From Porphyra umbilicalis (Eukaryota > Rhodophyta > Bangiophyceae > Bangiales > Bangiaceae): a DNA stretch of 64,000 bases. The notes beneath the pieces are model-generated. The model did no database searches and was not told the DNA's origin. It was given only the letters and a program-made list of their open reading frames with translations. The stretch spans positions 372,001-436,000 of the forward strand of contig KV918764.1 of assembly GCA_002049455.2 (NCBI GenBank), in the 5' to 3' direction. The position numbers and the translations under genes were made by a program. Shown here one piece after another: positions 3,612 through 50,690 of this stretch. Positions within the stretch are counted from its first letter, which is position 1, and each line of letters begins with the position of its first letter.

Positions 3612-4492
3612 CTATGTGCCCCCCCTCTTGGCAAAGCCAGCCTCCTTCATCGCAGACACCGCGTCGTGCGACAGCTTCATCCACCGGGTGTCTTGCATCC
3701 CCCCCACCACCACTTGCATCGCGTAGGCTTCGTCGCGCGGGAGGCTGCCACCCACCTCCACGGGCAGCTGGGCGGGGTCGATAAACTTGGCCAGCGCCGC
3801 CGGGTCCTTGCCGAGCAGCTGCACCCGCCCGCGCACTTTGGGGGACAAAAACTGCCGCACGACCGCCCACGCAATGCCCATGTACGGCGGCTGCTGGGTG
3901 ATGTAGATGCCTCGCAACCGCAGCGGCAACACGTGCTGCGCAATGTTCCACCACGCGCTCATTTCGGGGCCCTTGAGGTGGCGCAGCAGGCCCATCCCCG
4001 CCGACGCCATGTTTTGCACGAGCACCACCCCGCAGATGGCGACTTCGGGTTGGCGAAGGAGCGCGCAAAACGCCCAAAAGCCGACCCGCTTCAGCGCCCC
4101 CATCCCCGCATCGTCGAGGAGGGACACGAGTTTCGCCCCCGACACGGTCACCATCGTCCGCCCCGCGCGGTCGCGCGTCGCCGTGAGCCCGAGCGCCCCG
4201 TGCCCATACACCCGCAGCAGCTGCGGGACCGACGGCAGGGACGCCCACGGCTCCACGTCGACAAAGGCGGCAAAGCGGTCGATGCGGGCGGCGGCGACGG
4301 GGAGGCGGAATTTGGCGACGCGGAGGAAGGAGAGGAGGAAGACGGGGTCGTCGGCGAGCGCCGCGCGGAAGCGGGAGCCGGGCGTGGGGGGGGACGCCGC
4401 CGCCGCCAACTCGCGCTGGCGGGCGATGAGGTCCACCAGGCCCGCGGAGCGGCGGACGTCCGTTTCGCGGAGCTCCCGCTCCGCCCGCTCCA
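3612..4492 (-). CDS. CRAL-TRIO (Sec14-like) lipid-binding protein, last exon
   Basis: The frame encodes an N-terminal CRAL-TRIO helix region (DDPVFLLSFLRVAKF, about 50 residues into the exon) followed by the lipid-binding lobe, with QNMASAGMGLLRHLKG and a C-terminal block ending in LAKFIDPAQLPVEVGGSL. Order and spacing match the alpha-tocopherol-transfer/clavesin/Sec14 group, which carry hydrophobic lipids between membranes; the ligand cannot be told here. The frame stays open upstream to about 4796 but has no ATG before the middle of the domain, and the upstream part is Pro/Ser low-complexity. A C-rich tract ending in CACCTAG, with the AG at 4494-4493, is a good splice acceptor, so I start the exon at 4492 and leave the first exon(s) unplaced. 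The stop codon TAG is at the 3612 end. Family is fairly certain; the 5' end is inference. Confidence 0.8.
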
Positions 4493-5689
4493 CTAGGTGG
4501 GGGGGGGGCGCAGATGGAGGAACTGGAGCACCATGGTGACCGTGCGGAGAAGAGGGGGGGGGGGGTGGGGCGGAGGAGTGGGGCGAGGGTGGTGGAGCGT
4601 CCGCAAGAGCAGGGAAGAGGGAGGCTCTGATGGGACGAGGAGGCCGTAGGGAGGGAATGATGGAGAATGGCAGGTTGAAGGACAGGAAGATAGGGAGAGA
4701 GGGGTGGCAAAAAGGCGGCGGGTCAGAGGAAAGCCGACGCAACGGCGACCAGGTGGGGTAGGGAGAGCCGTAGGCGGGGGTGGGTGTCGGCGCCAAAGGG
4801 TGGGTGTGCCAGGCGCGGGCACAAGAGTCCTTAGAGACGCTCTCCTTTGGGCAGCTCCGACGGCGGCAAGCGGGGATGGGGGAGGCGGAGCTGCTTGTGA
4901 GGTCGCGCCACCGCCGCGCCAGCTTTCCTCAGGCGGCGCGGGCGCTGTTGCTCGCGGCGTGCGCAAGCGGGGGCTGGGCGCGGCGGCGCGTGTGCCGTCA
5001 GCCCCCGCGTGCACGGCGGACAAGGTGTGTGGGTTCAGCACGGGGATTGGCCGCCCGCCTGCCGCCGCACCCCCCTCACAGCCCCCCCAGGCGCGGGTAG
5101 AAACGGGTCGACAGGCGGGGGCCGGCGCGCGCATCGTCGCGCGGCGCCGACCACGCCACCTGAGGCCGCGCGCTTGCCATCCGTGCGGCCGCGGGCGGGC
5201 ATAGGTGCGTCTGGGAGTGGCCCGTGGAATGCAAGAGGGGCGTACAGCGAGGACGGCCGTGAAGGAATCGGCCGTGCGCAGTTTCACATGACATTGGTGG
5301 GAACTTGCCATGTGAAACCAACTCAGCCAATCAAATGACGACGATCCTCCAGCGAGCGCTGTGGTCACAGCAGAACAGACCACCCTGAGACGCCCATGGG
5401 GCAGCCGGATGCGTGCCAGACACAGACACTAGCCCCCAGACACGCCGACCGACCCTGCCCAGACACAAAGCAGCCCCCCAAGAAGCGGCATGTCAAGGGG
5501 GCGGGGCCCGTGTCAAGGGGCATATGACGAGCGAGATACGGTCCAGATCGCAGATGAAACGGAAACCCGGTCCTCGCAAGCTGATAATAACGCATGTTAG
5601 ACCACAGCTCTCAGCCACAGATCCGGTAGTCAAGAATATCGGACCTATCAAGTGGCCCCAGCGAGCATGCCGATATCACATAAAACAGG
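4493..5689. other. Upstream/intron sequence of the CRAL-TRIO gene; no other gene seen
   Basis: The minus strand is pyrimidine-rich up to about 4750, which fits an intron or leader upstream of the CRAL-TRIO exon. No exon with an ATG could be chosen with confidence. The only distinct structure is the 38-bp palindrome at 5281-5318, listed separately. Confidence 0.4.
5281..5318 (+). repeat. 38-bp imperfect palindrome, copy 1
   Basis: GTTTCACATG at the left end pairs with CATGTGAAAC at the right end, with a partly complementary centre. The same 38-bp element, with about five differences, is present in the opposite orientation at 10303-10340. The flanks of the two copies do not match. Confidence 0.75.
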
Positions 5690-6640
5690 ACATTTCGGAG
5701 CACCTCCGAGCACGCACACTCTCGGCGCCCTGCTCGCGCCCGGTTTGCGCGCGCACCGGCCAAAAATGGGGGCCCAAAATCGGCCCGCCGATAATCGCTG
5801 GCCTGTATTTGCCACTGGGGCCACTGTGGGCCACACCCCCCTATTCAGCCCCCGCACCTGCGTGCACGCACCCTGTGGGCCCCCTGCTCGCGCCCGGTTT
5901 GTGCGCGCACCGGCCAAAAATGGGGGCCCGAACTCGGCCCGCCGATAATCGCTGGCCCGTATTTGCCACGGGGGCCACTGTGGGCCACACCCCCCTATTC
6001 AGCCCCCGCACCTGCGTGCACGCACCCTCTGGGCGCCCTGCTCGCGCCCTGTTTGCGCGCGTACCGGCCAAAAATGGGGGCCCGAACTCGGCCCGCCGAT
6101 AATCGCTGGCCCGTATTTGCCACGGGGGCCACTGTGGGCCACACCCCCCTATTCAGCCCCCGCACCTGCGTGCACGCACCCTCTGGGCGCCCTGCTCGCG
6201 CCCGGTTTGCGCGCGCACCGGCCAAAAATGGGGGCCCGAAATCGGCCCGCCGATAATCGCTGGCCCGTATTTGGCACGGGGGCCACTGTGGGCCACACCC
6301 CCCTATTCAGCCCCCGCACCTGCGTGCACGCACCCTCTGGGCGCCCTGCTCGCGCCCGGTTTGCGCGCGCACCGGCCAAAAATGGGGGCCCGAAATCGGC
6401 CCGCCGATAATCGCTGGTTCGCATTTGCCACGGGGGCCACTGTGGGCCACACCCCCTTATTCAGCCCCCGCACCTGCGTGCACGCACCCTGTGGGCTTTC
6501 TGTTTAGAAGCGCGAGCCCGAAATGTTCGGGCTAATCATATCTGGCCCATATTTCTAGTGGGGGCCTCTGTGGGCCACACCCTGCCATTTGGCGGCAGCA
6601 CTCCACTGCGGCACCTGCGTGCACGCACCCTGTGGGCGGC
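5690..6640. repeat. 154-bp tandem repeat (satellite-like)
   Basis: About five near-identical units of 154 bp, marked by the block GGCCAAAAATGGGGGCCCGA at 5758, 5911, 6066, 6220 and 6374, followed by one degenerate unit from about 6500 to 6640. The roughly 97-residue open frames that recur every 154 bases on both strands are by-products of the repeat. The central copies are about 97-99% alike. Confidence 0.9.
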
Positions 6641-11153: not shown

Positions 11154-12116
11154 TCACCACATGGTCATCACGTCGGACTCCCAAAACGGGTGCCGCTGGT
11201 ACGTCTGGGGCATGCCGCTCAGGAGGGGTGCCCCCGCCGCAAACTGGATCTCCCCGTCCATCAAGCCGTTCAGCCCCGGGGCCTTGACGGACACGTGCAT
11301 CGGGACGGGCAGGTCGTCGATAATGTCAAACTCCACCACCGCCCGCACCGGCTCGGGCGCCCGCCGCCGCCGCGCCCTCCCCGGCGGCGGCTGGCGGCCA
11401 TTGACGTAGACCGTCACGTCCAGGCGGGTGCGCCCCAGGATCGCAAACTGCATGTCCCGCCCCCACACGACCGCGTCGCCCTTGGCCGGCGGCAGCAGCG
11501 GGGGTGACCCAGGGAGGGAGACATAAAGGGCAGCGTCCAGGAAGCAGCCCGCGCCGGAAAAGACCGACAGGGCATCGTTGGTCGCCCGCACCTCCTGCCC
11601 CTGCACGACGACGGTCGAGGCGCTGGCCAAGTTGGGCCGATACACGGGCTGGCCGCTGAGGCTGCCGCGCTGCGCCCGCGCAATGCCGTCGGCGCGGGCA
11701 TTGTCGGCGCGCGGGACGTGCTTCACGGTGAGGCCACCAAAGCGCTCCACCGCCGCCTGCGCGTACACGAGGTACGCCTTGAGCCGCGGCGCACGCAGGG
11801 TGAGTTCACGCCGCACCGCCTTGATGATCAGCTCCGAGTCACCCCGGACGGCCAGGCGGGCGGCGCACGGGTTGGGGACCACCTCGAGGGCGAGCCGCAG
11901 GCCACCGAGCAGGCCCGCAGCCTCTGTCAGGTTGTTGGTGCTGCGGCTGCTGAGGATGCCGCCGGCGGTCACCACCTCAATGAGGCCCGACGCGGCGGAG
12001 GGGGTGCCCGCATGGGGGGTGGCGGCAACTTCCCCGCGGAGCAGCACCGCACCCCAGCTGCCGGTACCCGGGTTGGGCGAGCAGCTGCCGTCAAAGAAGA
12101 GCGTGTAGGAATCCAT
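11154..12116 (-). CDS. RNase H-fold protein with a novel C-terminal domain
   Basis: From the ATG at 12116 the protein has 320 residues. Residues 1-150 are an RNase HI-type domain, which cleaves the RNA strand of RNA/DNA hybrids. All four acidic catalytic positions are visible: D9 (FFDGSCSPNPGTGSWG), E65 (NNLTEAAG), D93 (RGDSEL) and D143 (HVPRADNARADGIA). The opening and the HVPRADN motif resemble plant-type RNase H-like proteins. The last 170 residues belong to no family I know; they contain an Arg-rich patch (GRARRRRAPEP) and end in PFWESDVMTMW. The frame is open for another 51 codons upstream, without an ATG and with a low-complexity product, so the ATG is preferred. No reverse transcriptase lies nearby, which argues for a host gene. 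I see no signal peptide. Confidence 0.75.
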   Translation of the reverse strand: MDSYTLFFDGSCSPNPGTGSWGAVLLRGEVAATPHAGTPSAASGLIEVVTAGGILSSRSTNNLTEAAGLLGGLRLALEVVPNPCAARLAVRGDSELIIKAVRRELTLRAPRLKAYLVYAQAAVERFGGLTVKHVPRADNARADGIARAQRGSLSGQPVYRPNLASASTVVVQGQEVRATNDALSVFSGAGCFLDAALYVSLPGSPPLLPPAKGDAVVWGRDMQFAILGRTRLDVTVYVNGRQPPPGRARRRRAPEPVRAVVEFDIIDDLPVPMHVSVKAPGLNGLMDGEIQFAAGAPLLSGMPQTYQRHPFWESDVMTMW

Positions 12117-15100
12117 GGTGCGCTGCTGTGGGGAACTGGGCAGGGGCTGCGCCAAGTGGCGGCGACGGCAGGGAAACAGGGTGCGGCAACAAGAAAAACG
12201 GGACACTGGTCTGTCACAGCGGGCCGACGGTCCAGCAAGAATCCCAATGGACCGTCCACATGGAAACACGTGCAGCGCACGTCACGGGGACACGGGCGGT
12301 TTGCCCCGTTTACCCCTCCGCCGTCGTGGACGGGGAAGGGCAAGGGCACGAACGTGGAACCGGCGTCGGTTCCCCAATGGATCCACGTGGGACAGAGCCG
12401 TTTGTTTACAAACAATCTATCGACGTCGATGCGGCAACGCTATCGACGCCAATAGGGGGCAACGCTATCGGTAGCGATAGAGGGCAACGTGCTGCGTGAG
12501 CAGAGTCGTGTCCCATTGGACGGCAGACACAGAGCGCCAACGGCAGGACGCTCCGTGCAGACGGCTCGTCGATGAGACACGGAGGCGTCCTCGGGGGTGC
12601 TCGTTGCCCAAGCAACTTGCGCGGCTCGATCGGCGTGCGCGCTGCGAAAGCGCACGGGGCGGCGGGGCGCGGTGTGTACTGTACTGTACGGCGCCGTGCG
12701 GCCGAGGGGCTGGCGCGCCTGGTCCGGTGCCGCCTCGGGCGAGCGGCCCCTGCAGGCGCCCGCGTATCTCGCGGGAAAGGCCGCCCCGATCCCAGATATA
12801 GATCTGGGATTGTGGGGAGCTCTTGGAGGTTGAGGACGCACGACTGATGGTCAATGGACCTGGCGTGTTTCTGGGCTCGAAGCATTGGTGCTGGATCAAT
12901 TTTCAAAGAGGTAGCAACTTGCACCGAGCATTGCGCACGGAGCCTTGTCACCGCGCAAGTCTCGATCCGCCACACGCGACCCCCCTATGGTCGGTCCGGC
13001 AAGAGCTGGAGCAGCCCCAGTCTGGGCCAATCAATCGCACAACCCGGCCTCTTGGCCAGGCCTGGACTCTCCACTGTAGGGCGGAACGACGATGTGGCTG
13101 ATGCTTCGTTCCCAACCACCATTTTCCCGCCTCTGCTTTCCCATCCCCTGTGCCCATGCCCCCCCCGTTGGGCTGGCGCTTGCCCGCCACTGCACCGCTT
13201 GAGCCCAACCGCGATCGCCGCGACGGCCAGCGCCCCCCCGTCGGATTGCCATTGGGCGTGGCGGGGCGCCACGCCGGCCACCCGCGTCCCCTGTCCGACG
13301 CTGCCCGCCCGTCGCGGTCGCGCGTTGCTTGCGTGCGGGTGCCACGGACCGCCCGGCCGCCGCCGGCGGTGCGGCGCCACTGGCGGCCGGGGTGCCGCCG
13401 CCCCCGTCGCGCCGGCGCCCCGCCGCCCCTGGCAGCGCCGGCTGGGCCGTCGGCATGCCTGCTGCCGGCGGCGACGCGGCGGGGGGGGACCCCTTGCGTG
13501 GCGCCTCTGACCTGTGGCGGCCTCGTCGGCGCCGCGCGCCCCCGCCACAGAGCGCCAGTGGCGACGGCCGCGGCGGACGACGGCGGCGGCCGAGCGCGGC
13601 GGCGGCGGCACTGCCGCGGGGGGTGCGTGCGTGCGTGCGCCCGTGTCGCGGGCGGGGGGGGTGCGCCGACGCGCGCGCGGGCGCGACGCCCGGCGGCGGT
13701 GCGCCGTGCGGTGCTGCGGGGGGCGGGCACCGCCGCTGCGGCGGGCGCGCCCCCGCGCGGCGGCGGGTGTGGACGGCGCGTCGGGGCGGGGCGGGGGCGT
13801 GCCGCGCGTCTCGGCGGCCGACGGCGGCTGTGGCGGGGGCGCGTCGGCACACGGCGGTGGGCGGCGGCGCTCGGCAATGGCCCCTCCCCGCCGTGACTGG
13901 CGGCGCACGTCTGCGGGGGGGTGGTGGCCGGCGTGCCTGCACATGCGGGATGGAGAGCACGGGAGGCCGCCGCGTGGTTCCACGTCATCGTCCGTGCGTC
14001 GGCGGCGGTCGGCTACGTGGCGGCCGGTGGCCTTTGTTTCTCCTCTGCTGCTTGTCGGATGCGGTCCCCCCCCTGTGGGTGGATGTTGTGCCGGCGGGGG
14101 TCGGCACGGGGTGGGGAGCGCGCGTGTGACGTGCACGGCTCCGACATGCCAGCCGCCGACACGGCGGCGCTCCACGCCGTCGACGTCACCGCGTCGTCCG
14201 TAACGGCGGCGACACGTTACTGCGTGTTGATAGCGGCGTGCGCCTTTCCGTGGACGTTGGCAATGGCGACGCCGACGTCGTGGCCGCGCTCGGCCACGGC
14301 GTCGTCGGGGTGGGGCCCCTGCTGCCGCAAGCGACGGGGGACGCCTGCACAGCGTCCTTGTTGTTGGAAGGGCAATGTTGCTAGCGGCGGCGGCAGCGGC
14401 GGTGGCAGCATCGGCAGCGGTGTCGGCACGAACGGTGCGTCGGTGGCGGTGCGGCTGCATCTGCTCGTCGTCAATGTGGACGTGGGCGGTTCAACTTGCG
14501 GGCCGCCACGACATTCTGTGGTAGTTGCAAGGGTGGGCACCCCTTCCCCACCTTCCTCGACGCGTTGCTGTCTTGGCTTGCGCACCCGCGCATCATGTCT
14601 TTTTGCTGTGCTGGGGTGGAAGACGGCACACACGTGTATCTTGACGCTGTGCGCGGTGTGGCTGCATGCCCCATGCCGTGGCGTGTTGGCGGTGGCAGTG
14701 GTTTGGTGACGGCGGCAGTGCACCGACGCTGCCGCGGCCGTCACGCGGCACCGACGCCGGCCCGTGCCACGCCCGTGTGTTGGATCGATTGTGCCACCGT
14801 CGCCCGCCACCGCCGCCGCCTCAGGGCCCGGCGCCATACATATCGCGGCTGTGCGACGGGGGTCCTCGCTACGGGCCGCCACCATCATCCGTTTGCGCCA
14901 AAGGGCAGAGCACCAGCGCCTCGCCGTACGTGCGCAGGGAATCGAGCGCGTCAGCAACCAAAGGCGGCGTCTCGGCCACACGGGGACCGTCTCCACCGGT
15001 CGCCATCACCTCGTGCGGCGCCACTGACGGAAACGGTGCGAGGGCCTCACTTGCCCGCCGAGGCACCCCGGGTCAGCGACGGGCGGGGCCACGGGCGGCA

Positions 15101-15987: not shown

Positions 15988-18065
15988 ATGTCCAGCCCCA
16001 GCCGGTTCGAGCTGCTCCCCCTTCCCGGCACGCGGAAGCTGCCGCGGCCCGACTCCCCACCAGACGCCACGCCGACCGACAACGAGCGGCTGGCCGCGGG
16101 GTCCCCGTCGCCGCCGTCGTCGCTGGTGAGGACGCAGCCCGACACGTCGTCGGCGCTCCCGGCGTCGTCCTCGCCGCCGCCGCCGCCGCTGCCGCCGCTC
16201 GCCCTCGGGCCGTCGATTAGCGCGGCGGCGCCGAGGCCGCCGTGGCCACCCGAGGAGTCATCCCCGTCGAGGCCACCCATTGCGTCGTCGCCGCCGCCGC
16301 CGCCGCGGTCGGCGTCACCCCCCCCGCCGCCGCGGTCGGCATCACCCCCGCCGCCGCGGTCGGCATCACCCCCCCGCCGTCCACGTCGCCGCCCGGCGCG
16401 GGCGGCCGGCGGCCGCCCCCCACACCCGTCGCCCTGCAGCCGCTGGCGGTCGGCCCCCTCGTCGGGTCCACCACCCCCACGTCGGTGCGGCTGTGGGGCG
16501 GGTGCCCGTCGCCGTCGGCGGCCACCCGCGGGGAGCGGCGGCTGGCCGTCGCACGCCTCGATCGGGCCGGCGGGCGCGGCACGTCCGCGGCCGCGCCTGC
16601 CGTCCGCGTCGTGTCCCTCCACGCCCACTTTGACGGGACGGGCGTGGCGGTGTTTGGGGACTTGACCCCCGCCACTCGCTACACGTACCGCTTCGGGTGG
16701 TACACGGCCGCCTCGGCGACCGCGTCGACGGCGGCGGACGACGGGGGGGAGGCGGTGCCGCCGCCGACACCGCCGCCGCCGCCGGGCGGGTACGACTGGT
16801 CGGCCGCGTCGGGCGGCTCGTTTACCACCGCCTCGGCGGATGCCGCCGCCAAGCGGTCGTACGTCTTTGGCAGCGGCCGCTCGACGTTGCCCCTCGGGCG
16901 CGGCACCCCCGCCGACCGGCGTGCCGTGTGGGTGGACGGGCGCGGGGACAAGGCGTTTCGCTCCGCCCTGCGCCTCGTGACGGCCACCTGCGCCTGCTCG
17001 ATCGACGGGGTGCTCTTTTGCGGCGACACGGTCACCTTGGGCAGACACGGCGGCGGCGCCCGCCCGCCGTCGGTGGCCGATGCGTGCGCGGTCTACCGCG
17101 CCGCCTTTACGGCGCCGGGCCTCAGCGCGCTCCTCGCGTCGACGCCGTGCCGGTTTGTGGCGGGCGTCGCGGACCTCCCCGACGCGCGCCCGCTGCTGCC
17201 GCCGCCGTCGACGGCGCACGGCCACCGCCGCGCCGCCGCCGTCGACGAGGCGGCGCGCCACGCGGCGACCGTCTACCAGGTGTCCCACTCGGCGGCCATG
17301 GCGGTTGTGCCGGGGGGCGATCGCCTCGCCGGCGCGGCGGGCGCCCCCGGCCGCTCCTGGTACACGTGGACGGACGGGTGCGTCGTCGGCTTTGCAACCG
17401 ACGTGCGCACGGGGCGGCGCGTGTCGCGGTCGTCGTCGAGGGGGCGGCTGCTCGACGCGGCGCAATTCCAAGCGCTCGTCGCCTTTTTGGGCGCCCACCC
17501 GGACCGCGTCAAGGTCGTGCTGTCGGCCGTGCCGTTTGCGCCCGACGGCGTCGGGGGCGCCGCCGGCTGGGCCGCCGAAGCGCCCGACCAGCGGGTGGCG
17601 CTGCTCAACTACATTGCCGACGTTGGCGCCCGGCGCGTCTTGTTCCTCTCGGGCGGCGCCGCCGCGTCAACGTCAATGGTGGTCGCGTCGGCGGGGGAGG
17701 GAGCGGGGGCGACGGTCGTGGCCGCAACGAGCGGGCCCTGGTTTGGGCCCTACCCGCCGCCGCCGCCGCAGCGGCGGGCGTCGCGGCCCCGGGGGGGGGC
17801 GCTCCGCCTCCCCGCCACTGGCGCGGTGACCGCCGAGGACAACTACACCGAGGTGACGGTCGGCTTGACCGAGGTCGTCTTTAGCCTATTTTCGCGCCGG
17901 GGGGGGCTCCTCAACACGACGACGCACGGGTGGGCAGGCCGCCGCCGCGGCCGCGGCGGGCGTTCCGGCGCCGGGGGGGGCGCTCCCCCTCCCCGTCACC
18001 GGCGGGGTGACGGCCGAGGACAACTTGCCCGAGGTGACGGTCGGCTTGACCGACGTCGTCTGTAG
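15988..18065 (+). CDS. PhoD-like phosphatase-family protein, probable pseudoenzyme
   Basis: Model: exon 1 at 15988-16125 (ATG, 46 codons), a 95-nt GT-AG intron at 16126-16220 (donor GTGAGG, acceptor GATTAG), exon 2 at 16221-18065; 660 residues, phase kept. The exon 2 frame has no early ATG, which supports the intron. Residues about 120-205 match the PhoD N-terminal beta domain (GPLVGSTTPTSVRLW, LTPATRYTYRFGW) and about 255-560 the PhoD catalytic fold (YVFGSGRS, FCGDT, VVLSAVPFAPD, LFLSGG). Active PhoD enzymes hydrolyse phosphate esters using Fe/Ca bound by a Cys in a GSC motif and by Asp/His of the D-D-H and SGDVH motifs. Here these read GSG, VADLPD and SGGAAAS, so catalysis is unlikely. Long Ala/Pro stretches separate conserved blocks. 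The tail repeats the previous 180 bases. The 3' end faces the ferroxidase gene 160 bp away. Confidence 0.7.
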
Positions 18066-18224: not shown

Positions 18225-19079
18225 CTACCCGCCGCCCCGCGGCGGCGGCGGCGGCGGCGGCGGGGGCGCCCACGGCGCGGCGGCCGACCGTCGGTCTGCC
18301 GGCACGACCGCCGCGCGCATCCCCGCGGCCGCCAAATCGGCCGTGTCGGCGCCCCACACCCCCCCCCCCCGCCCCCCCCCCGCACGTCCATGACGGTGAC
18401 CCCCCCCGGGTAGACGACCCCCCCCGCCCCGTCGGCGGTCGCCCCCCCCACGCCCGGGGCGGTCAAGACGGACCCCGGCGGGCGCCGCACGGGCACCGCC
18501 CCGTCTGACAGGGACCCCACGTACAGGCGGGTGGTGCCGCCGCGCCGCACCGCCAGCGGCGGGCCGTTGCAGTGCACGTAGCCCGAGACGGTCGACCACG
18601 CGGGGCGTGGGGGGGGGGGCGGGGGGGCGCCGCCCGCCGCCGCGCCCCCCCCCCCGCCGCGGGCGCGGGGGCCTCGAAAAAGGTGTGCAGCGCCGCCGCC
18701 ACCTCGGCATCCGCCCCCGCCGGTCGCACGCCGTCGGCGGCGGCGGGGTCGGCGACCAAGTCGGCCGCCGCGCGCACGACGGCCACGACGCCAAAGAGCC
18801 CCGCCGCCGCCCCCCCGCGCGTCGACGCGGCGTAGAGGTGGCCGGCGGTCGCGCCCGCCGCCGCCGCCGTCGGCGGCGGTGCGGCGGCGAGAGGCACATC
18901 CCACGTGGCCGTCCACGTGCCGCCGGGGGGGCGGGCGCGACGGGGCCGCCGCGGGGCTCCCCCCAGGCCGGCACCGCCGCCGCGAGGGGCACCGCCAGGC
19001 GGTTGAGGAGCGTGAGCGTCCACGGGCGGCCGGCGACGGCGTGGAGGAGGGGGCCGAGGAGCGCCGGGGGGGGGGCGGC

Positions 19080-19110
<31 letters not shown>

Positions 19111-19201
19111 GGGGGGCGGGGGCGTCGGCGCCACCAGCGTAAAGGCGGCTTTGGGAAAGACGGTGCGCGTGCCGGGCGGCAGCGGGCGGGGGGGGTCGAC
19201 G

Positions 19202-19238
<37 letters not shown>

Positions 19239-22177
19239 CGGCGCGGGGCACGCGTCGACGCCCCGCGGCGCGTAATCCCACTGCACCGCCGCCGCGGCGA
19301 GGCGGTAGTGGCGACCGGCGGCCGGCGGCGGCGGTGGCGGCACGGCGACCGCCGCCACGGGTGGCGCCCCCCCCCCCCGACTCGCCACGCGGCGACCATC
19401 CCCTTGGCCGCGTGGCCCGGCGCCCCACAGCGGAGGAGGAGGTCCGTCCCCCCCCCGGCGCAAGGCGCACGGTGTGAAAGAGGCCCGCAAGGAGCGGGTC
19501 GGTGGAGGACCCCCCCGGCGGCGGGGCGCCGCCCCCGACCCGCCCGACGCCCGCCGCCGACCCGTCGGCGAGCAGCGTGTGCACGTCCACTTCGGTGCCG
19601 AGGGTGTAGGCCGCCAGCCGCGCGGGCGCCCGGGGTGTCAGCCGCACAGCGCCGCTGCCGGGCGGCGGCGCGCAATAGAGGGTGCCCCCGAGCGTGTACT
19701 TGCGGTGCGCGCCGGCAGACGCGCTCCTCGCCCAGCCGCCGGGGGGTGGCGGCGGCAGATTCACCCCCGCGTGCAAGCTGAGCGTCTCGTCGAGGACGCC
19801 GACAAAAAAAGGGGTGGGCGGCGGCGGGGGCGCCGCCGCCGCCGCTGCCGCGGCGGCGGGCAGCCCCCCCCGCGGGTAGACGAGGAGCACCCCAAAGAGC
19901 CCCGCCGCCGTGTCGGCAACCTCCGCCACGTGGCTGTGGTACACCCACACCTGGGGCGCGCCGCCGGCGGCCGCGGCGGGCCCCGGCCCGGACCGGGGCG
20001 GCACCCCCCACCGCACCGTCACCGTGCCGCCGACGGCGACGGCATTGTCGGCAGCGTCGGCGCCCGCCGTGCCGTCGGCATACGCGGCGCCTTCCGCGTC
20101 TTTGGCGTACCGCAACCCGTGCGGGTGGAGGCTGAGGTCGTGGGCGGTGCCGTCGAGGGCGCCCCCACGGTTGTGAAAGGTGACAACGACCGTGTCGCCG
20201 ACGGCGGCGGTGAGCAGCGGGCCCCCGAGGCCGGGGGGGATGGCGCCGTCGCGGCCGCCGCTCGGCAGCGGCGGCGGCGCGCGCCGCGTAAAGGTGGCGT
20301 CGGTGTAGGCGACATAGACGCTTTTGACGTAGGCGGCGGCGGTGCCGTTGCCGGGGGCGGACGCGCCCATGGGCGGCGACACGCGCGCCGCCTGCGCGGG
20401 CGTGTACGCGCCGCCCGTGCACGCATTGACGGTGTGGTGGGCGGGGGTGTAGTCCCACGCCACCTGCTCCGCGGCGAGGAAGTAGCGGCGGGTCGTGCCG
20501 CCGAGGGGGGGGGGGGGGGGGAGCCGCGACGTGTCGACGCGAAACAGCAACGCCATGCCTGCGGGGTAGATGCGGCGGGGGGGGCGGGGGGGCGGGGGTG
20601 GGGGGGGACCGGCGACGCGGCAGCAGAGATGGAGGGCGCGGCGGTCGTCAGCACCCAAAGCACACAGACGGGCCGGGCAGACGGGGGGCCGCCTCGTTTG
20701 GCCCCACGCCCCCCTCGCAGTCCCCAGGTCCCCCCCTCACCCCGCCCCCCCCCCCCCCCGCGCGCAACGTACCCATCGCCACATGGTCATTCAAATGGCA
20801 GTGGCCGTACCACACCCCCCCCTCGTCCGCCGCGACAACAACGGTCACCCCCCGGCCCGGCAGGAGGGGCAACACGTCTGTGTGCCCCCCCCCCCCGTCA
20901 CCCCCCCCACCCCGTGCAGGTGCAGCGTGTGCACGTCGGCGACCGAGGCGGCGGCCCCCCCGCGGTGAGGCCGTGCCACAGCGTCCGCGTCGCCGCGTCG
21001 ACCACCCACCGCGGGCCGTGGCAGTGGGTAAAGCCATTGACGGCGGCGGCGATGAGGGAGGGGTCCCCGGGGGGGGGGGCGCACCCGGGGGGGGGGGGGG
21101 AGGGGGGGGGGGGCAGGGGGGGGGCGGGCGCGCCAGCGGCGACCGCGACTCGTCGTGCAGCTGGAGGAGCGTAAAGACGTGTTGGTAGCCTGGGCAGGGG
21201 AGGAGCGCAGCGCAAGCAGGACGGCGAGTGGGCACAGCGGCACGAGTGGAACCGTCAGGGCCGCGTCAGGGGGAAACGGCACTGGGATCCCAGTGCCGCG
21301 TCCCGGGACGCGCCACGACCGCGCGCGGGGCGGGCACGCCCACCGGCCAATGCGGATCCCCCCCCTCCCCCCCCCCCCCCCCCCCTCCCAACGTACCTCG
21401 GGGCATCCCCCGGTCGTCCGCCTCCTCGCGGCGGCTCACAACGAGGGGCCCGAGGAGCCCCCCCCCCCCCGACCCCCCCCCCCCGAATACACGTGCACCG
21501 CCGCCGGGGTGTGCCCCCCCCCCGCCGCCGCCGCGGGCACCCAAAACCACCGCGTGGCGGTGCCGCCGGCGGGCACGTCACCACCGCCGCCGCCGTTGGA
21601 GGCGCCGAGCGCAACGACGCCACCCACGTCGAGGCCGACGGGAAAGGGCGTGTCGGCCCGCACCGTGATGGCGAGGAGCTCCCCGGCGGCCGCGTACAGC
21701 GGCGGGCCGAGGAGGCCCATGGGGGATGTCGACCCGCCGCCGCCGCCGCCGCCGCCCGTGGCCGCCTCGGACGCGGCGAGCCCGACCGCCGGCGCGACGA
21801 CCGTGAACGTGTCGTCGGTGTAGGCCGTCCACACGGCCTTGGCGTAGACGGTCCCCCGCCCCGGCGGCCGCGCCGCCGCCGCACACGCGTCTGGTTCGGC
21901 GGCGGCGGCGCGGGGCAGCGGCGGCGGGTCGCGGCGGCCGGCCGCCTCGTCCGCGGTCATGGGGCGGCCAAAGCAGGCGTTGACCCCCCCGAGCGGCGCG
22001 TAATCCCACGCGACCGTCGCCGCGCGGAGGTAGTAGTGGCGGCTCGGCGGCAGCGGCTGCGCGGTTGTAGGGGGGGGGGGGGGGCACCAGCGCAAGGGCA
22101 ATGGCAGCGGCGGCGGCCGCCGCCCACGGGCGGGGGCGGCGACGGCGCCGCCGCCCGTGTGTGTCGGTCGGCGCCAT
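18225..22177 (-). CDS. Secreted ceruloplasmin-type multicopper oxidase (ferroxidase-like)
   Basis: Three repeats of paired cupredoxin domains (six in all) as in ceruloplasmin/hephaestin and algal FOX1 ferroxidases, which oxidise Fe(II) for uptake. The start ATG at 22177 opens a signal peptide (Arg-rich then WAAAAAAAIALALV). Each repeat has a WDYAP/WDYTP motif (near 22000, 20450 and 19275). Two GT-AG introns keep phase: 21190-21396 and 20559-20772. Splicing the second restores HCHLNDHVAMGM. Copper motifs: VHTLHLHG (20912-20934) and HCHLNDH (20783-20803) in domain 2; HPHG (20116-20127) and YHSH (19930-19941) in domain 3; VDVH plus CGAPGHAAKGM (about 19397-19430) in domain 4. Domains 1, 5 and 6 have none. 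The frame changes at several G/C runs of 7-18 bases, and the protein reads as conserved on both sides. Homopolymer errors in the assembly or early decay could each explain this. The end is convergent with the PhoD-like gene. Confidence 0.8.
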
Positions 22178-28167: not shown

Positions 28168-29110
28168 CTATCGGGGGAGCAGGCGGGCGAAGAAAAACCG
28201 ATCATACTTGGATGCAACCGTGAGCGCAGAGATGTACGACGCCGCCAACGTCGGCTCCGTCGTCGCGCTCAGCGCCGAGATGGCGCCGCAGTTGACACCC
28301 GCGGCATTGGCCGCCGTGGCGCCGCCCGACTTGAGGGAGTGGGACGCATACACCGTGCCGACGGAGGGGGTGACCTTCAAGAGGTGCAGACCGGCCTGCA
28401 ACCAGGTGGTGATGAGCGCCGACGCCGCGGCCGACGCGCACTTGGTGAAGAGGCGCGCGGACGGCCGGTGGTGCGCGGCGCGCAAGTCCGCGACGAGGCG
28501 CGCGAGGAGCGCGAAGGGGAGGTCGACCCCGCCGTGTACGGACGGGGGCATGCGTCGGGCGATGAGGCCCCGGTCCGCCTCCGTCTTGTGTCGCGGAACC
28601 TGGTAGGCCGCCGACCCGTCGGCGCGCACGTCCACGTCGGCCAGCGTCAAACGGGTGATGTCGCCCGCGCGGCGCATCCACCAAAACTGGAGCCCCACCG
28701 CAGTCAGCTGGTGGCGGCGGGCCCGCGGCGAGCGCATCGCGAGCTCAGAGAGCCCCCAAGCAACCGCAGAGGGGAGGGGGACCCGCACCGGCTTGATAAC
28801 CGGCCGGTACAGCAAGCCGGCGCGGCGGAATCCCGCCTTGGCTTCGCGCACAGAGGCGTGGTCGCAGGGGTTGGGCTGCCCGGCGGCCACGTGCCGCTTG
28901 CGGATGGCGGCGAGGATGGGCTTGAGGGAAACCGCCACGACAGAGTTGCGGCGCCACAGATGCCCGACGTAGGCGAGTATCGTCTCGGTGGAGGCGGAGA
29001 GGGTGCGGAGCCCGTGCGTACCACAGTAGCCGGAAAAGCGCCCCCACAAGCCGCCGTACCGCGCCGCCGTCCCGTCGACCACGCTGTTTACGCGGAGCCA
29101 GCGAGCGGCA
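28168..29110 (-). CDS. Tyrosine recombinase of the DIRS-order element
   Basis: A phage-integrase-like tyrosine recombinase with an N-terminal SAM-like part (ARYGGLWGRFSGYC), then the catalytic fold with RRAGDITRLTL, SHSLKSGGAT and a C-terminal tyrosine in ASYISAL. It would integrate the circular cDNA of the element. Its start overlaps the end of the RT frame. The boundary near 29110 is approximate, because the open frame runs on upstream as an out-of-frame shadow of the RT. Confidence 0.8.
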
Positions 29111-31385
29111 GCGGCATCAGCGCCGCGTCCGGTCGCGGCACGCGCCAGCACGCGACGCTGGTCGCGGCGCCACTCTGCCGCCCCCGCCGGCCGTTGAACC
29201 GGCGGCGCCGGTAAGCAGCCCGCTCGAGGCGGGCCCGCTTGGCGGCGATCCCCGACGGGGGAAGGCCGCCGCCCACGAACCGGAAGACTGCCAACCGCCA
29301 CCGAGGGGGCGAGGTTGTACCCCGGGCGGGTCCGCCTGGGAACGGGCCCGCCGTCTTGGGCAGCAGGTACGCCTCGTTTGCGGCTTCGACGGTGGGTGCC
29401 CACCACTGCTGAGCCCCCCACACCGGGAGGATGACCGTCGCCGTCGCCTTGTCCACGCAGATCTTGGCGACGACCAACTCGGCCAGGTTGAACGGGGGGA
29501 AGATCCAGTTGTTTTCCCCCGCGCCCCACCCGACCGACAGGGCATCCACCGCTTCCGTCCCTGGAGCGTGCGTCTTGGTGTTGAACCTTGGGCACCGCGC
29601 GTTCAGGGGACTGGCGAAGCGGTCGACCGTGTACGGACCGTACCACTGCTGCAACGCCGAGAAGGTTCGGTCGGCAATCCGCCAGTCGTGGCAGTCGGAC
29701 TGCCGCGACAGGGCGTCCGCCCACACGTTGGCTACGGAGGGCAACCAGGACGCCCGAAGCGTCACGCGGTACCGCTGGGCGACGGCGTGCAGCTTGCGTA
29801 GCTCGTCCATCAGCGCCGGCGACCTGCTGGAGAAGCCGTTGATAACGTGCATCGCCACCCGGCTGTCGACCCGCAGGCGAAGGAGGCCCTCCTCGCCCAG
29901 GAGCTGCGCGCCGAACGCCAGGAGACAGAAACGCACCGCCGCCACTTCCTTCACGTTGATGTGGAGGTCGCGTTGCGCGACGGTGAAAAAGCCCGCCGCT
30001 GGCAGCAGGTGGTGCCAATGCCCGCCCCACCCGTAGGGGGACGCGTCGGTCGTCAGCTCTCCCAAAGTCTTGGGCCACAAGGCCCGCCCGACGCCCGGCT
30101 CCGTGTTCAACTTGGTGAACCACTTGAGGTCGCTGACCGCCCCGTGCGACAGGCGCGACCTCGGCCCCGTCAGGCACTGGCAGTCGTACAGGCGCCGAAG
30201 GAAGAAGCGCGCCGAGGGGACGGCCAGCTGGCACGACACGGCCATCCCGGAAAAGCGCTGCAAGGCCTTGGAGGACACGCGACGGGAGCGCAGGCGGGAC
30301 GCCGACAGCAGTGCCTTGGCTCCGCCGACGAGCTTGGCCAATCGCGGCGGCGGCAGCAACACGAGCCGCCGCGCCGTGTCCACCAAGTATCCCAGCAGGG
30401 GGAGACAGGTCGTGCCGACCGGCACCCCCTTGGCCGGGTGCACCTGAATGCCGAGCCGCTCGAACAGAGACAGGATCTCGACGCGCCCCGCCGTCGCCGT
30501 TGCTTTGGTCGAGGGGCGGGACCCCCGCCCGTTGGCGGCGAAGTCGTCGACGTAGGCGTTGATCTTGAAGCCCCTCAACCGCAAGGCCGCCACAACTGGC
30601 CGCATCAGCTTCGTCCAGACCCACGGGCTGAGCCGCATGCCAAATGGTAGCACCCGCGGCTCGTAAACTACGCCCGCGACGACGAACCGAAAGTATTTGC
30701 GGTCCGCCGGTCGGAGTCGGACGTGGTAAAACGCGTCCGACACGTCCCAAGAGACGAGGTGGTCGCCCGGTAAGAGCGTCGAAAGGAACGACGGCAGCTT
30801 CTGGTACTGGAAGATGCGCCGCCGGATGTGGAGGTTGATCAGACGCAGGTCGATGACCAGTCGCGGCTTGGAGCCGTACACCACGAACGTCGGAGACACC
30901 CACGGTGCGCCCGCGCCCGCCGCGGGGGAGAGCCTCTTGGCGTACCCGGCAGCCACCCACCGCGCGACCTCCGTCTCGGACCACAGCTGCTCGTCGCCGG
31001 GCATGGCGTAGCCCTTGGACTTGGTCGGCGGTGGACGCGACGCCCAGGGCACGCGGAAGCCAAACTGGATCGTCCGAAGCACCCAGTACGCTGCTCCCAT
31101 CGCCGCCCAAGTCCTCAGCGCCGCCAGCAGCGTTGTGTAGGGCGCGGCGGCGGCTGCCGCCGCGTCCGCCTCGTGCTGCCGACGGGCTTGCCGCCGCCAC
31201 CGAGAGTCGGGGCGGCGGCGCTTGCTTGCCTTCTTGGGCGGAGCGTCCCCCGGCAAGCGAGAGGACGCCCCCGACCCCCGTGTCCGGCGGGGGGTCGGCG
31301 TCGCCGGCAGGCCGCCCGGCTTAGGCACCCCGGGTGGGGCGCCCCCCCTTGGGCGGCTTCTTGTCCCCGCGGATGCCGTCGGCAT
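29088..31385 (-). CDS. Reverse transcriptase-RNase H of the DIRS-order element
   Basis: A 765-codon frame. The RT core shows RLVIDLRLINLHIRR, LVSWDVSDAFYHVRL, LPFGMRLSPWVWTK and the catalytic YVDD (about 30540-30557). The RNase H domain begins at ELTTDASPYGWGGHW. Fingers and palm follow the DIRS/Ngaro pattern, as does an RNase H without an integrase after it. The frame overlaps both the gag-like frame upstream and the recombinase downstream. It is fossil-class sequence that looks whole. Confidence 0.85.
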   Translation of the reverse strand: MPTASAGTRSRPRGGAPPGVPKPGGLPATPTPRRTRGSGASSRLPGDAPPKKASKRRRPDSRWRRQARRQHEADAAAAAAAPYTTLLAALRTWAAMGAAYWVLRTIQFGFRVPWASRPPPTKSKGYAMPGDEQLWSETEVARWVAAGYAKRLSPAAGAGAPWVSPTFVVYGSKPRLVIDLRLINLHIRRRIFQYQKLPSFLSTLLPGDHLVSWDVSDAFYHVRLRPADRKYFRFVVAGVVYEPRVLPFGMRLSPWVWTKLMRPVVAALRLRGFKINAYVDDFAANGRGSRPSTKATATAGRVEILSLFERLGIQVHPAKGVPVGTTCLPLLGYLVDTARRLVLLPPPRLAKLVGGAKALLSASRLRSRRVSSKALQRFSGMAVSCQLAVPSARFFLRRLYDCQCLTGPRSRLSHGAVSDLKWFTKLNTEPGVGRALWPKTLGELTTDASPYGWGGHWHHLLPAAGFFTVAQRDLHINVKEVAAVRFCLLAFGAQLLGEEGLLRLRVDSRVAMHVINGFSSRSPALMDELRKLHAVAQRYRVTLRASWLPSVANVWADALSRQSDCHDWRIADRTFSALQQWYGPYTVDRFASPLNARCPRFNTKTHAPGTEAVDALSVGWGAGENNWIFPPFNLAELVVAKICVDKATATVILPVWGAQQWWAPTVEAANEAYLLPKTAGPFPGGPARGTTSPPRWRLAVFRFVGGGLPPSGIAAKRARLERAAYRRRRFNGRRGRQSGAATSVACWRVPRPDAALMPLPLAGSA

Positions 31386-32370
31386 AGCGTCGACCGTGCG
31401 CCCGCGCCGCGGATTTGACGAGACTGGAATTCTGCGCCGTCGCCAGGTAGTCCCAGGTGGGGCAGTAGGCGTCTTGGTCGCCGTGCCCGAACACCAGGGT
31501 GCGCAACGTCTCCGACGCTGGCGTGTCGTGGGTGGCCAGCGTGATTACCTTGTAGCGCGCCGACACCAACGTGTAGAGCTGGTGCAGCCCCACCCGCGTG
31601 TTGACGTCGAACGCCGAGGGCGCCCCGCCCGCGTCCTCGACCTCATCCTCGCGGCTGAGCACGCGGTTGTGCAGCAATTGCAACCAGGCGGCGACGTTGT
31701 AGACAAACTCGAGCTCGTGCGCGGGCTTGCCCGACAGCTTGGCTTGGACCTTGATGTAGCGCGTGTCCCCGACCACGTCAAATGGGTGCGGGTACTTGGT
31801 GTGGGCCTCCCCCTCCGGCGGGAGGAAAAAACCGCGGATCACCGGGCGCACGTTCCGGACCCGGCGGATCTCGGTGTAGGCGAAGGCGCTGCGGTAGGGT
31901 GCCACCCGCCCGTCTCCGGGCGTGTAGTCGTCGTCGTCCGAGTCCGTGACGTCGTCGTCGTCGTCGCCGACGCTGCCGTCGTGAGGGTTACCGCCGCCAC
32001 CGCCACCACCGCCGCCGTCGCCGCCGCCACCGCCGCCGCCGTGTCCGCCCCCGCCACCCCCCCTCCCCCACCGCCTTCGGCAGAGCCGTCGGGGGGCGAG
32101 GGGGGGGGGGGGAGTCTGCGTCGCCTCTAGCCGCCGAACCGCGGGCAGATGCCGGGCCCTTGGCCTTGCGACCACCGCCACCCGCGCCGCGCGCGCACTC
32201 TGCGACGGGGAGGTCGGCGAGGATGGGGAAAAGGAACAGGACAAGAAGGGGGAGGGTGATCACCCCCGTCGTAACCGTAGCCCGCGAGCGGGCCGGCGCG
32301 GCGAGACAAAAGTCAAAGAAGCCGCTCCCCGCCAGGGGGGTAGGCGTCGAGATCGACGCCATCAGGTCCA
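31321..32370 (-). CDS. gag-like protein of the DIRS-order element
   Basis: The first frame of the element. It starts Gly/Asp-rich and acidic (DDDDDVTDSDDDDYTPGDGR), then has a conserved-looking body (HTKYPHPFDVVGDTRYIKVQ, ELEFVYNVAAWLQLLHNRVL) and a basic tail. Position before RT and composition suggest the structural protein; no zinc knuckle is seen. The start is uncertain. Confidence 0.6.
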
Positions 32371-35234: not shown

Positions 35235-38200
35235 TCAGCACTCCCCCAACAGGGGGTCGCCAAGCCCGGCGCCCCGCGCAGCCGCGCCCAGGTCTTCACC
35301 AACCCCGACGGCAGCCCGGAAAGCCGTGAACGCCGGCGACGGCAGCGGCTTGGTGAGCCCATCCGCCGGCATGTCGGCGCTCGGGAGGAAGTAGAAGGCC
35401 ACATCCCCGCGCGCCTGGTAGTCGCGAACCATGTGGTAGGCGACGTCGACATGCTTGGTTCGCCCCGTCGCCTCGGGGTTGTTGACCAGCGCCAGGCAGG
35501 ACTGGTTGTCCTCCCCCATCGGCACGGCTCCGCCGTCGACGCCCAGAGCCGACAGCAGCTTGCGTAGCCACAGCGCCTCCTTGGTCGCCATCGCGGCGGC
35601 CACGTACTCGGCCTCGGCCGTCGAGGTGGCAACGGTCGACTGGCGCTTGCTCGCCCACGCAATCGGCCCGCCATTGCAGGTGAATACGAAACCGGTTGTC
35701 GACCGACGACCGTCGATGTCGCCGGCCCAGTCGGCGTCGACAAACCCTTGTAGCGGCTCGCTGCCGCCGTAGACCACCCCTAGGCGAGTCGTCCCGCGCA
35801 GGTAGCGCAAAACCCCTTTGGCCGCGCGCATGTGGTCCTCCTCAGGGCAGGACATGAAGCGCGATAGCACCCCCACGGCAAAGGCGATGTCTGGCCTCGT
35901 CGTTGTAGACAGGTAGAGGAGGGAGCCGACCAACTCGGCGTAACGGTTGCCCTCTGGCAGCAGGCCCTCCCCTGTCTTGGTCAGCTTGACTCCCGACGCC
36001 ATCGGCGTCTTGTTTGGCGTCGCCTTGTCCATCCCGAACGCCTCCAGCAGCGTCGCGGTGTGCCCCGGGTTGCTCAACGTCAAAGTCTTGGCCGCCCGGT
36101 TGCGCATGACCTTCATGCCGATAAAGTCCTTGACCTCCCCCATGTCGCGCACCTCAAACTTGGCAGACACGGAGCGCTTGACGGCCTCGACCCCAGCCAG
36201 CTTCTCGCCCGCCACGATAAGGTCGTCGACGTACACGAGGATAAAGATGCACCCGTGCACGGGGTGGTGCCACTCATAGAGGCACGGGTCCACTTTGGAC
36301 CGGGCCGCCCCCATCTCTTTGAGCTCTTTGTCGAGCTTGATGCCCCACAGCCGCCCCGCCTGCTTTGTCCCGTAGAGCGCCAGGTTAAGCCGACACATCT
36401 CCTCCAGCCCCTCCGGTTCGACACCGTCGGGGAGTTTGATGTACATCTCCTTGTCCATCTTGGCGTTGAGGAAGGCTGTCTTGACGTCGACATGGTGAAT
36501 CTCCCAGCCCATGACTGCCGCCACAGCAAAGAGAGCACCTGTCGTGGCCGCGTTGGGTACCGGAGCCCACGTCTCGTCAAAGTCTCGTCCGGGCACCTGG
36601 TTGAACCCTTGGGCCACGAGTCGAGCCTTGTAGCGCGTCAGCTTGCCCTCCGCGTCGTGCTTGATGTCGAACACGAATCGCGTCTTGATGGCCTTGTGAT
36701 TCTTGTTGTTCCCCTTGGTCTTGGACCAGGTGCCAAGGTGCTTGTGTGCCGCCACCTCCTCCTTAATGGCCTGCTTCCACAGCGGCCAGTCAGGACGAGC
36801 GCGCGCCTCCTTCTCGTTTGCAGGCGGTTTGTGCAAGTCCCAGCCCTCCTCAGCCGCGGACGCGGTACCGCTTGCCAGGTACGCCTTGGGTTCCTTCTCC
36901 CACCATGTTACCTTGGGAGCTGGCTTGCGCTTCGAGCGACGAGGCCCCGGTGCGACGCTGTCACTGGCAGCAGGTGCTTGACCTACCCAGGGTGTCGAGT
37001 CACCGTCGCCGTCATCGTCCTCTTTCTCGCTCTCTTCAGCGAGGGAAGGAGGACTGCCATCTTCGTCGCTTGTGGAAGTTTCGTCGGGGGTGTACTCGTC
37101 CCCACGCCCGCCTTCGGCGTCGAGCATGTCCATTTCCCCTTCCGTGCCGTCGACGCTGTCGGCGTCAGCCTCCGCAGTTAGCCGGGGACCAGCACTTGAC
37201 CCGACTGCTGCCGTCTCGACCTTAGCCGGGTTCTCCTCCATCAGCACGTCTCGACGCTCGAAGACTTGGTTCGTCTCGTCCTCGAGGATGCGGTAGGCCT
37301 TGCTACCGACAGTGTAGCCGACAAAGCGGCCGACGTCGGTCCTTGGCTCCAGCTTACGCTGCTGCTTCTTGGGTTTGAGCGCCCACGCCCGACTCCCCCA
37401 AACGCGGAATCCCGCGACGTTGGGGCGTCGACCCGTTAGAGCCTCCAGCGGCGTCACGTCCAGCCCCGCCTTGGGGGACCGGTTCAGAACATGAACGACG
37501 GAGGCCAACGCCTCAGCCCACAGCTCTTCCTCCGCTCCCGCATCGAGCAGAGCAGCACGCACGCGCTCCATCAGCGTGCGGTTCACCCGCTCCGCTTTGC
37601 CGTTCTGCTGTGACTTGTACGGCGCCGTCATCTCCGACGTGATGCCCTTGTCCTCGTACCATGCCTTGAGGTCGTTAGTGACGTACTCCTTGGCACCATC
37701 ATGACGGACGCGCTTGACCTTGATCCCCGTGAGCGTCTCAAGCTGCTTGATGCGCGTCTTAAGCACCTCCGGGGCCATCCCTTTTGTCTTGATAGGCGTA
37801 GCCGTGATGAACCCCGTGGAGTCCTCCAGCGCCGTCATGAAGTAGATGGAACCACCCAACGACTCAGTGAGTGGGCCACCAATGTCGGTGTGCACCTGTT
37901 CGCACTTGGTCGTCGCTGTCGACGAGCGGGGGCTCGGCGACTGAACCATCTTGCTGTCCACACACGGCACACACACAGTGCCAATGACGCGCTTAGCGTC
38001 TGCCACTGACGACGGCATGCCGTCGACCATTGTGGCCGCCCGCTTGAGGTTCTCCAACCCCAAGTGGTTGAACCGACGGTGCCACAGCTCCGCCTCCCCA
38101 GCTATGCGCGTGGATGCCACATTAGCCGACGCCTGGACCGGCGTCACCTTGAGCACATACTGCTCCAGGTCGTTCACCTGACCGACCACCGACGCCTTGT

Positions 38201-39413: not shown

Positions 39414-39555
39414 GTTGACGACCTCGGCGCCGCACAGCGCCGCACTAACGACGTAGGGAGCAGAACACGCCCGCCCGACGCCGGAACACACCGCGACCCC
39501 AGCAACGTCGTCTCGCCAGCGACCGCAGGGAAGACGACGGTTACCACCAGCGACA

Positions 39556-39570
39556 GCTGGGCCCATAACC
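39556..39570 (-). other. Copia primer-binding site matching the interior of initiator tRNA-Met
   Basis: The minus strand next to the 5' LTR reads GGTTATGGGCCCAGC. This is the exact complement of GCTGGGCCCATAACC, the anticodon-stem region of eukaryotic initiator tRNA-Met. Drosophila copia uses the same half-tRNA priming. Confidence 0.85.
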
Positions 39571-39968
39571 TGTGAAGTGAGCGGTAGTTGGGTGGATGCG
39601 TCGCTTTACTCGAGAGCGGTCTGAGGCGCGAGGCCAGCTGGCTCTTAACCCCTCCGTGTGCCTCTCTCGCCACGTCCTGCCGGGGCACCCCCCGCCAGCG
39701 CAGTGGTCCCTCCCTTGGAGGGTACATGCTCTCACCACCCCACAAATCGCGACGCCTCTCGAGGAGCCCACGAGAATCTCCCCGAGCTCAGCTCCAAAGT
39801 GAGCTGCCCTCGAGATACAAGTACAAGTAATTACATCACACACATACAGCAATGCATGTCAATGGCACAGCCAAACAAGCCGATGACCGCATAAGTATTC
39901 CTGGAATTAGCCAGGCAGTCCGCGGTAACTCCGACTTACCAGCGCGGGCTTGGGGGGCTGCCTCAACA
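39571..39968 (-). repeat. Copia 5' LTR
   Basis: 398 bp, TG...CA, followed on its right by the CGGCG target duplication at 39969-39973. Confidence 0.95.
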
Positions 39969-50412: not shown

Positions 50413-50690
50413 TCCTGCAAAATGAGCTCGGATTTGTGTAAGTTGATCCTACCTGAGAATAAGTTCACAAGGTCGACCAAAAATGTGATGTGATTGCAGT
50501 CCACATTCCCCGTTCTCTCGGCGCCTGTGGTGCGTTCTTCGGCCCGGTTATATCCACTGAGGAAATAACCGGGACAGATGTAACCGAGTAAAGACTGTGC
50601 CACGGTCCCACCGCCGGCCGCGAGCCGAGTCGAGGGCCGTCTAGGCCCGCCACCCCCGTCGGGGACCCGGTACCCGCCACAGCCGGGGTG

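Follow-up and report, generated by a model that had tools for sequence, protein, structure and literature searches.

The gene on the minus strand between positions 22177 and 18225 of the window (the whole 64-kb stretch of DNA analysed in this study) very probably encodes a secreted or membrane-attached multicopper ferroxidase with six cupredoxin domains, of the algal FOX1 kind. The predicted copper complement comprises two type-1 coppers (domains 2 and 4) and one trinuclear cluster with ligands in the adjacent domains 2 and 3, five copper ions in total. The reading starts with an ATG at 22177 and ends with a stop codon at 18227 to 18225, which coincides exactly with the limits given in an earlier sequence-only reading (18225 to 22177). 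The three-exon eukaryotic gene is read as 15 protein pieces joined via two introns and 12 frame changes, on both of which that reading was silent. The gene is arranged as follows:

21397 to 22177, minus strand: exon 1, with the ATG, a signal-peptide-like N-terminus (RRRRRRPRPWAAAAAAAIALALV, judged by eye) and domain 1
21190 to 21396, minus strand: putative intron 1, 207 nt, GTACGTTG...CCCAG, phase 1
20773 to 21189, minus strand: exon 2, most of domain 2 (type-1 site and half of the trinuclear cluster)
20559 to 20772, minus strand: putative intron 2, 214 nt, GTACGTTG...CGCAG, phase 1
18225 to 20558, minus strand: exon 3, the end of domain 2, domains 3 to 6 and the stop codon

The intron positions were deduced from splice consensus and reading frame; both introns have an identical donor, end with CAG and split a glycine codon as G/GC. 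The window has a GC content of 70.1% and contains 90 G/C runs of 8 or more. It harbors 104 open reading frames (ORFs) of at least 250 amino acids, 18 of which were scanned against Pfam. Among these 18, a copia-type retroelement, two other reverse-transcriptase ORFs, an RNase H ORF and a CRAL-TRIO protein were found, while an FTR1 domain, the partner expected for a FOX1-type ferroxidase, was not detected. A tRNA scan and an Rfam scan of the 64 kb gave no match. The retroelements, the CRAL-TRIO protein and the spliceosome-like introns of the gene point to a eukaryote. The label "algal-type" is used here for the resemblance to algal ferroxidases and not as the outcome of a taxonomic test.

When the pieces were joined with an X inserted at each frame change, the best matches in the PDB were ceruloplasmins (5n0k, E 1.8e-60, and 4enz, E 1.3e-56, which we take to be the rat and the human protein), with factors V and VIII ranking next. 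Domains 1, 2, 3 and 5 match ceruloplasmin, whereas domains 4 and 6 were assigned via position and motif spacing only and, when searched alone with phmmer, gave no ceruloplasmin match. The match of the domain 1 piece (E 1.1e-8) applies to the whole sequence, no individual stretch being significant; for domain 5 the value is 3.8e-5. Two Pfam families scored above the cut-off, Cu-oxidase_2 at residues 330 to 377 (domain 2, E 1.6e-9) and Cu-oxidase_3 at residues 480 to 597 (domain 3, E 3.4e-6). In three-domain oxidases and in ceruloplasmin, the N-terminal-type half precedes. The order Cu-oxidase_2 to Cu-oxidase_3 is the reverse of the usual one and therefore an independent sign of a cluster between the adjacent domains 2 and 3. 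Matches to NCBIfam models (ascorbate oxidase, laccase and others) were weak, none of them near the cut-off. Relatives were sought in collections covering viruses, prokaryotes and plasmids, with eukaryotes outside their scope: none was found in viral contigs with a domain 3-4 protein query, in viral or prokaryote contigs with the aligned odd domains as query (two short peptide patterns in each search), or among plasmids by tblastn with domains 2-3.

The copper ligands are distributed over the six domains, all on the minus strand, as follows:

21398 to 22038 (approximate ends), minus strand: domain 1, without a complete copper set; equivalent stretches FPVGLDVGG and AAVHVYS
20911 to 20937, minus strand: domain 2 motif DVHTLHLHG, type-1 His and two cluster His (ceruloplasmin H975, H978 and H980)
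20774 to 20809, minus strand: domain 2 motif YGHCHLNDHVAM, cluster His-Cys-His and type-1 His, with GM following after intron 2
19863 to 20490 (approximate ends), minus strand: domain 3, the other half of the cluster, Cu-oxidase_3
20113 to 20136 and 19918 to 19944, minus strand: domain 3 motifs LSLHPHGL and VYHSHVAEV, in one unbroken ORF
19379 to 19815 (approximate ends), minus strand: domain 4, a lone type-1 site, assigned by motif and position only
19561 to 19593 and 19397 to 19438, minus strand: domain 4 motifs EVDVHTLLADG, with Glu at the E272 position, and LLRCGAPGHAAKGM
18775 to 19310 (approximate ends), minus strand: domain 5, without a copper set; LAVPLAAAV and GHLYAAS
18225 to 18708 (approximate ends), minus strand: domain 6, without a copper set; YVGSLSDGAVPV and VWGADTADLAAAGM

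In phmmer alignments to ceruloplasmin 1kcw, domain 2 is identical to domain 6 at 8 of 8 ligand positions and domain 3 to domain 1 at 4 of 4 (HxH and HSH), as had been proposed for both domains. The second domain 2 motif together with GM corresponds to H1020, C1021, H1022, H1026 and M1031, with an Asp at the position of the iron ligand D1025. Altogether, domains 2 and 3 carry all 12 ligands of ceruloplasmin domains 6 and 1 (eight cluster His and the type-1 His, Cys, His and Met). This alignment and the Pfam order bear out the proposed location of the cluster ligands at the 2/3 interface and not between the first and the last domain. The type-1 site predicted for domain 4 was recovered as well, with its upstream His (EVDVH) and C-x4-H-x4-M. 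The latter pattern occurs twice in the protein; of 20000 shuffled versions, only 45 contained it one or more times. Considering this result and the PDB E value of 1.8e-60, the ligand pattern is not due to chance. Domains 1, 5 and 6 were said to be devoid of copper sites, and no complete site is found in any of them: with the equivalent stretches chosen by eye, domain 1 and domain 5 each retain one His, and domain 6 retains the Met. Domain 6, read as VWGADTADLAAAGM, contains neither Cys nor His. Two further approaches were uninformative, a MAFFT alignment of the three even domains, in which the copper ligands were poorly aligned, and a single-sequence model of domains 3-4 (mean pLDDT 29.4, unusable).

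Twelve frame changes within about 3.5 kb raise the possibility of a pseudogene in decay, derived from a ferroxidase of this type: the indels in G/C runs would then be genuine, fixed mutations, and what is missing from domains 5 and 6 would have been lost in the same process. The type-1 ligands of domain 6, gone except for the Met, would be in line with this, as would the retroelements and the long tandem repeat in the window. All 12 frame changes coincide with G/C runs of at least 7 bases; as the piece ends were set by eye, the precise position of each change is known only to within the limits of the flanking readable sequence. Such runs make up 8.9% of the 3,530 exon bases (20.5% of the bases lie within 8 nt of one), and no frame change is required outside of them, which renders a pseudogene less likely. 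Moreover, the approximately 1,100 codons in the 15 pieces are free of in-frame stops, and the active-site ligand positions are intact. Three of the 12 changes are located in the domain 2 exon, so that its two motifs are found in different frames of the assembly. Short introns were considered in place of the frame changes, but none of the 10 gap sequences inspected by eye resembles GT...AG.

Other sequences of the window show how G/C runs behave here. The copies of a 1215-bp tandem repeat (the two ends of the array excluded) are near-identical, the sole differences being one substitution and the length of a long G run, which varies by a single G, a length change of the kind seen in the gene and an argument against its decay. 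The copia ORF (1456 codons) is unbroken and contains no G/C run of at least 7 bases. In two further ORFs for which domains were matched, five such runs each, one of them of 18 C, leave the frame open; G/C runs are thus not always frame-breaking, a point in favor of decay. Overall, the frame changes are explained better by long G/C runs whose length is unstable or was misread than by decay, short of proof, and a pseudogene is regarded as improbable. If the frame changes are real, the gene yields no full product.

The arrangement had been described as copper ligands rotated by one repeat. This is valid as a label for which of three equivalent interfaces carries the cluster. As an evolutionary event, rotation is not established: domains 2-3 match domains 2-3 of ceruloplasmin, in unrotated register, better than the rotated pair of domains 1 and 6. 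Against 5n0k, domains 2-3 scored 101.7 bits on domains 2-3, compared to 41.4 plus 17.6 (59.0) on domains 1 and 6 and 40.7 on domains 4-5; the corresponding values for 4enz are 84.6, 41.7 plus 15.8 (57.5) and 46.5. A true circular permutation of a gene in ceruloplasmin order, by which domains 5-6 came to the front, is the alternative to loss from an ancestor with three clusters; it concerns the origin and is compatible with a ferroxidase of the FOX1 kind. The best single stretch on ceruloplasmin domains 2-3 argues against it, as does the preference of domain 3 alone for domain 3 of 1kcw (63.7 bits) over domain 1 (44.7) and domain 5 (32.3), despite the ligands that it has in common with domain 1. 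Domain 2 alone behaves as a permutation would have it, scoring higher on ceruloplasmin domain 6 than on domain 2 (27.2 and 26.1 bits for 5n0k, 25.6 and 13.8 for 1kcw, with domain 4 at 12.2 and 10.9, respectively). The best stretch of factor VIII for domain 3 is likewise the first domain, and the best stretch for domain 1 is ceruloplasmin domain 5, the partner expected from a permutation. This last match is weak, as is that of domain 5, whose best stretch is ceruloplasmin domain 3. Against factor V (8fdg), domain 3 scored 59.1 on domain 5, 56.5 on domain 1 and 34.1 on domain 3. Since the unrotated register of domains 2-3 is supported by ceruloplasmin and not by the other comparisons, the register test is not clean. 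A permutation appears rather unlikely, and the sequence comparisons lean weakly towards differential loss from the repeats, which is also the scheme in the description given by the 2013 paper (PMC3600357).

In human ceruloplasmin, one Fe(II) site consists of E935, H940 and D1025 of domain 6 together with E272 of domain 2, and a second of E597, H602 and D684 of domain 4 with E971 of domain 6, according to the sections of PMC11817551 and PMC3738974 on these sites. In the ceruloplasmin alignments, E272 is the Glu in NEVDVH and E971 the Glu in NEIDLH. A shift of the sites by one repeat predicts that domain 2 has an Asp next to its type-1 His and that domain 4 contributes a Glu. Both are present, the Asp in HCHLNDH and the Glu in TEVDVH, the latter as a motif match to NEVDVH of ceruloplasmin. 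The equivalent of E935 may presumably, by motif, be part of DESRS in domain 2, while a His equivalent to H940 was not seen in domain 2, where L is found at the corresponding spacing. Of the second iron site, the domain 2 Glu (E971 position) is replaced by Val and the domain 6 part is absent. An iron site beside the cluster, though incomplete, is plausible from these residues.

What the sequence establishes is the order of the domains and the ligand residues with their positions; for the ferroxidase, folding, copper loading, iron as substrate and export are inferred from the family. Fe(II) bound above domain 2 would pass one electron to the domain 2 type-1 copper, from which it would travel via Cys-His to the trinuclear cluster between domains 2 and 3, at which O2 would be reduced to water. 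A further type-1 copper, remote and probably with an auxiliary role, would sit in domain 4, and domains 1, 5 and 6 would be structural. Ceruloplasmin domain 4, the second electron-entry site, corresponds to domain 6 here. Tentatively, the protein might be a pared-down ferroxidase, in which, out of a three-fold repeat, the 2/3 interface keeps the cluster and one iron site with the acid from domain 4, the second electron entry being lost. If so, iron site and copper cluster move round the ring as one unit.

Alternatively, the protein might be a similarly built metal oxidase acting on a different substrate, such as Cu(I), an organic reductant or, as for MnxG, Mn(II). The bacterial MnxG-type enzymes have a 2/3 cluster too, as described in PMC3600357, and the iron-site His of ceruloplasmin was not seen in domain 2. 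In these enzymes, type-1 copper is confined to domain 2 in the same description, whereas it is predicted in domain 4 as well here, and acidic side chains where ceruloplasmin has D1025 and E272 suit an iron site. A substrate other than iron is considered to have little likelihood.

The novelty implied for the 2/3 cluster in the sequence-only reading does not hold, since the arrangement has been in print since 2013; the prior description of algal ferroxidases had been named there as the finding that would remove it. The trinuclear histidines are assigned to domains 2 and 3 in the ferroxidases of Chlamydomonas and Dunaliella and in all bacterial six-domain enzymes of the MnxG kind analysed, which have type-1 sites in domain 2 only, according to the comparison by Vasin et al. 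(2013, PMC3600357). The gene is a further example of the rule that six-domain copper oxidases retain one of three equivalent cluster sites; it adds no new principle to the 2/3 placement reported in that comparison. It may provide something new in a domain 6 without a type-1 site and in a partial iron site that moved along with the cluster, and represents a natural test of whether iron site and remote type-1 coppers follow the cluster.

Ceruloplasmin and hephaestin agree with the protein in the type of domain, the plan of the repeats and the spacing of the ligands. They differ in the cluster, formed by domains 1 and 6, and in type-1 sites in domains 2, 4 and 6 (as described in PMC3600357, PMC11817551 and PMC3738974), compared to a 2/3 cluster and type-1 sites in 2 and 4 here; neither trinuclear ligands in 1 and 6 nor the full type-1 set was found. 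Ceruloplasmin is the closest solved structure.

Factor VIII is a clotting cofactor and not a ferroxidase. Its A domains are described as having type-1 sites in 2 and 6 and one cluster (PMC3600357). This type-1 set, shifted by one repeat, gives 4 and 2 and matches the gene. The cluster ligands of factor VIII are contributed by domains 1 and 6, an arrangement common to every animal six-domain protein covered by that description, in contrast to 2/3 here. The MnxG-type six-domain oxidases of bacteria and archaea, likened here by the published description in PMC3600357, share the 2/3 trinuclear histidines and differ in having type-1 copper in domain 2 only.

Fox1 and Fox2 of Chlamydomonas and the Dunaliella ferroxidase are alike in the eukaryotic host, the 2/3 cluster and the type-1 site of domain 4, as far as described in PMC3600357, and in the six-domain build, of which domains 4 and 6 are assigned here by position and motif. 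The domain 6 type-1 site is stated there to be absent from the prokaryotic proteins, which implies its presence in Fox. The passages of the paper on Fox, from whose published description these proteins are known here, nowhere give this site as family-defining. Of the type-1 sites 2, 4 and 6 thus implied for Fox1, 2 and 4 are present here and 6 is absent, which would make the protein a variant. A Chlamydomonas protein (XP_001693036.1) is described as being without the domain 2 type-1 site (PMC3600357), which is present here. With the domain 6 site missing and its weight for the family unstated, the protein is placed among the six-domain enzymes with a domain 2/3 cluster, FOX1 itself being unproven; as an instance of a known layout it is a good addition, and no surprise.

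The predicted ferroxidase (18225-22177, minus strand) contains nine cysteines in total, two of which are type-1 copper ligands and one of which is an additional residue in domain 1. The others are distributed as one cysteine in each cupredoxin domain (6 of 6), at a seemingly equivalent place as judged by eye. In the odd domains, the motifs are VNAC (domains 1 and 3) and VDAC (domain 5), while the even domains carry HC (domains 2 and 6) and YC (domain 4). These cysteines might form three repeat disulfides.

Next to the ferroxidase gene, in tail-to-tail orientation, lies an open reading frame with a GC bias by codon position, the end of which is overlapped by a tandem pair. A Pfam scan of this reading frame gave no matches up to E = 1.
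16221-18062, plus strand: ORF of 614 codons
17756-18125: diverged tandem pair, 181 bp

Tandem arrays were also found.
1280-1625: array rich in GGGTG
5700-6496: 154-bp unit, 5.2 copies, 95%
50664-56736: head-to-tail array of a GC-rich 1215-bp unit, five starts, final copy incomplete

The 1215-bp copies are 99-100% alike across 300-nt cores. With the array ends left out, the differences between them are a single substitution and the length of one G run.

Further reading frames encode a protein with a CRAL-TRIO domain (Pfam) and proteins of the reverse-transcriptase or RNase H kind.
3615-4928, minus strand: CRAL-TRIO protein
11157-12281, minus strand: additional RVT_3/RNase H ORF
29091-31544, minus strand: RVT_1, then a Dam-type DNA N6-adenine methyltransferase domain
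35238-39605, minus strand: unbroken copia-type retroelement ORF, 1456 codons long, carrying gag, integrase and RVT_2 domains
39966-42890, minus strand: additional reverse-transcriptase (RVT_1) ORF

The succession of RVT_1 and methyltransferase in the reading frame at 29091-31544 is the order known for DIRS-like elements.
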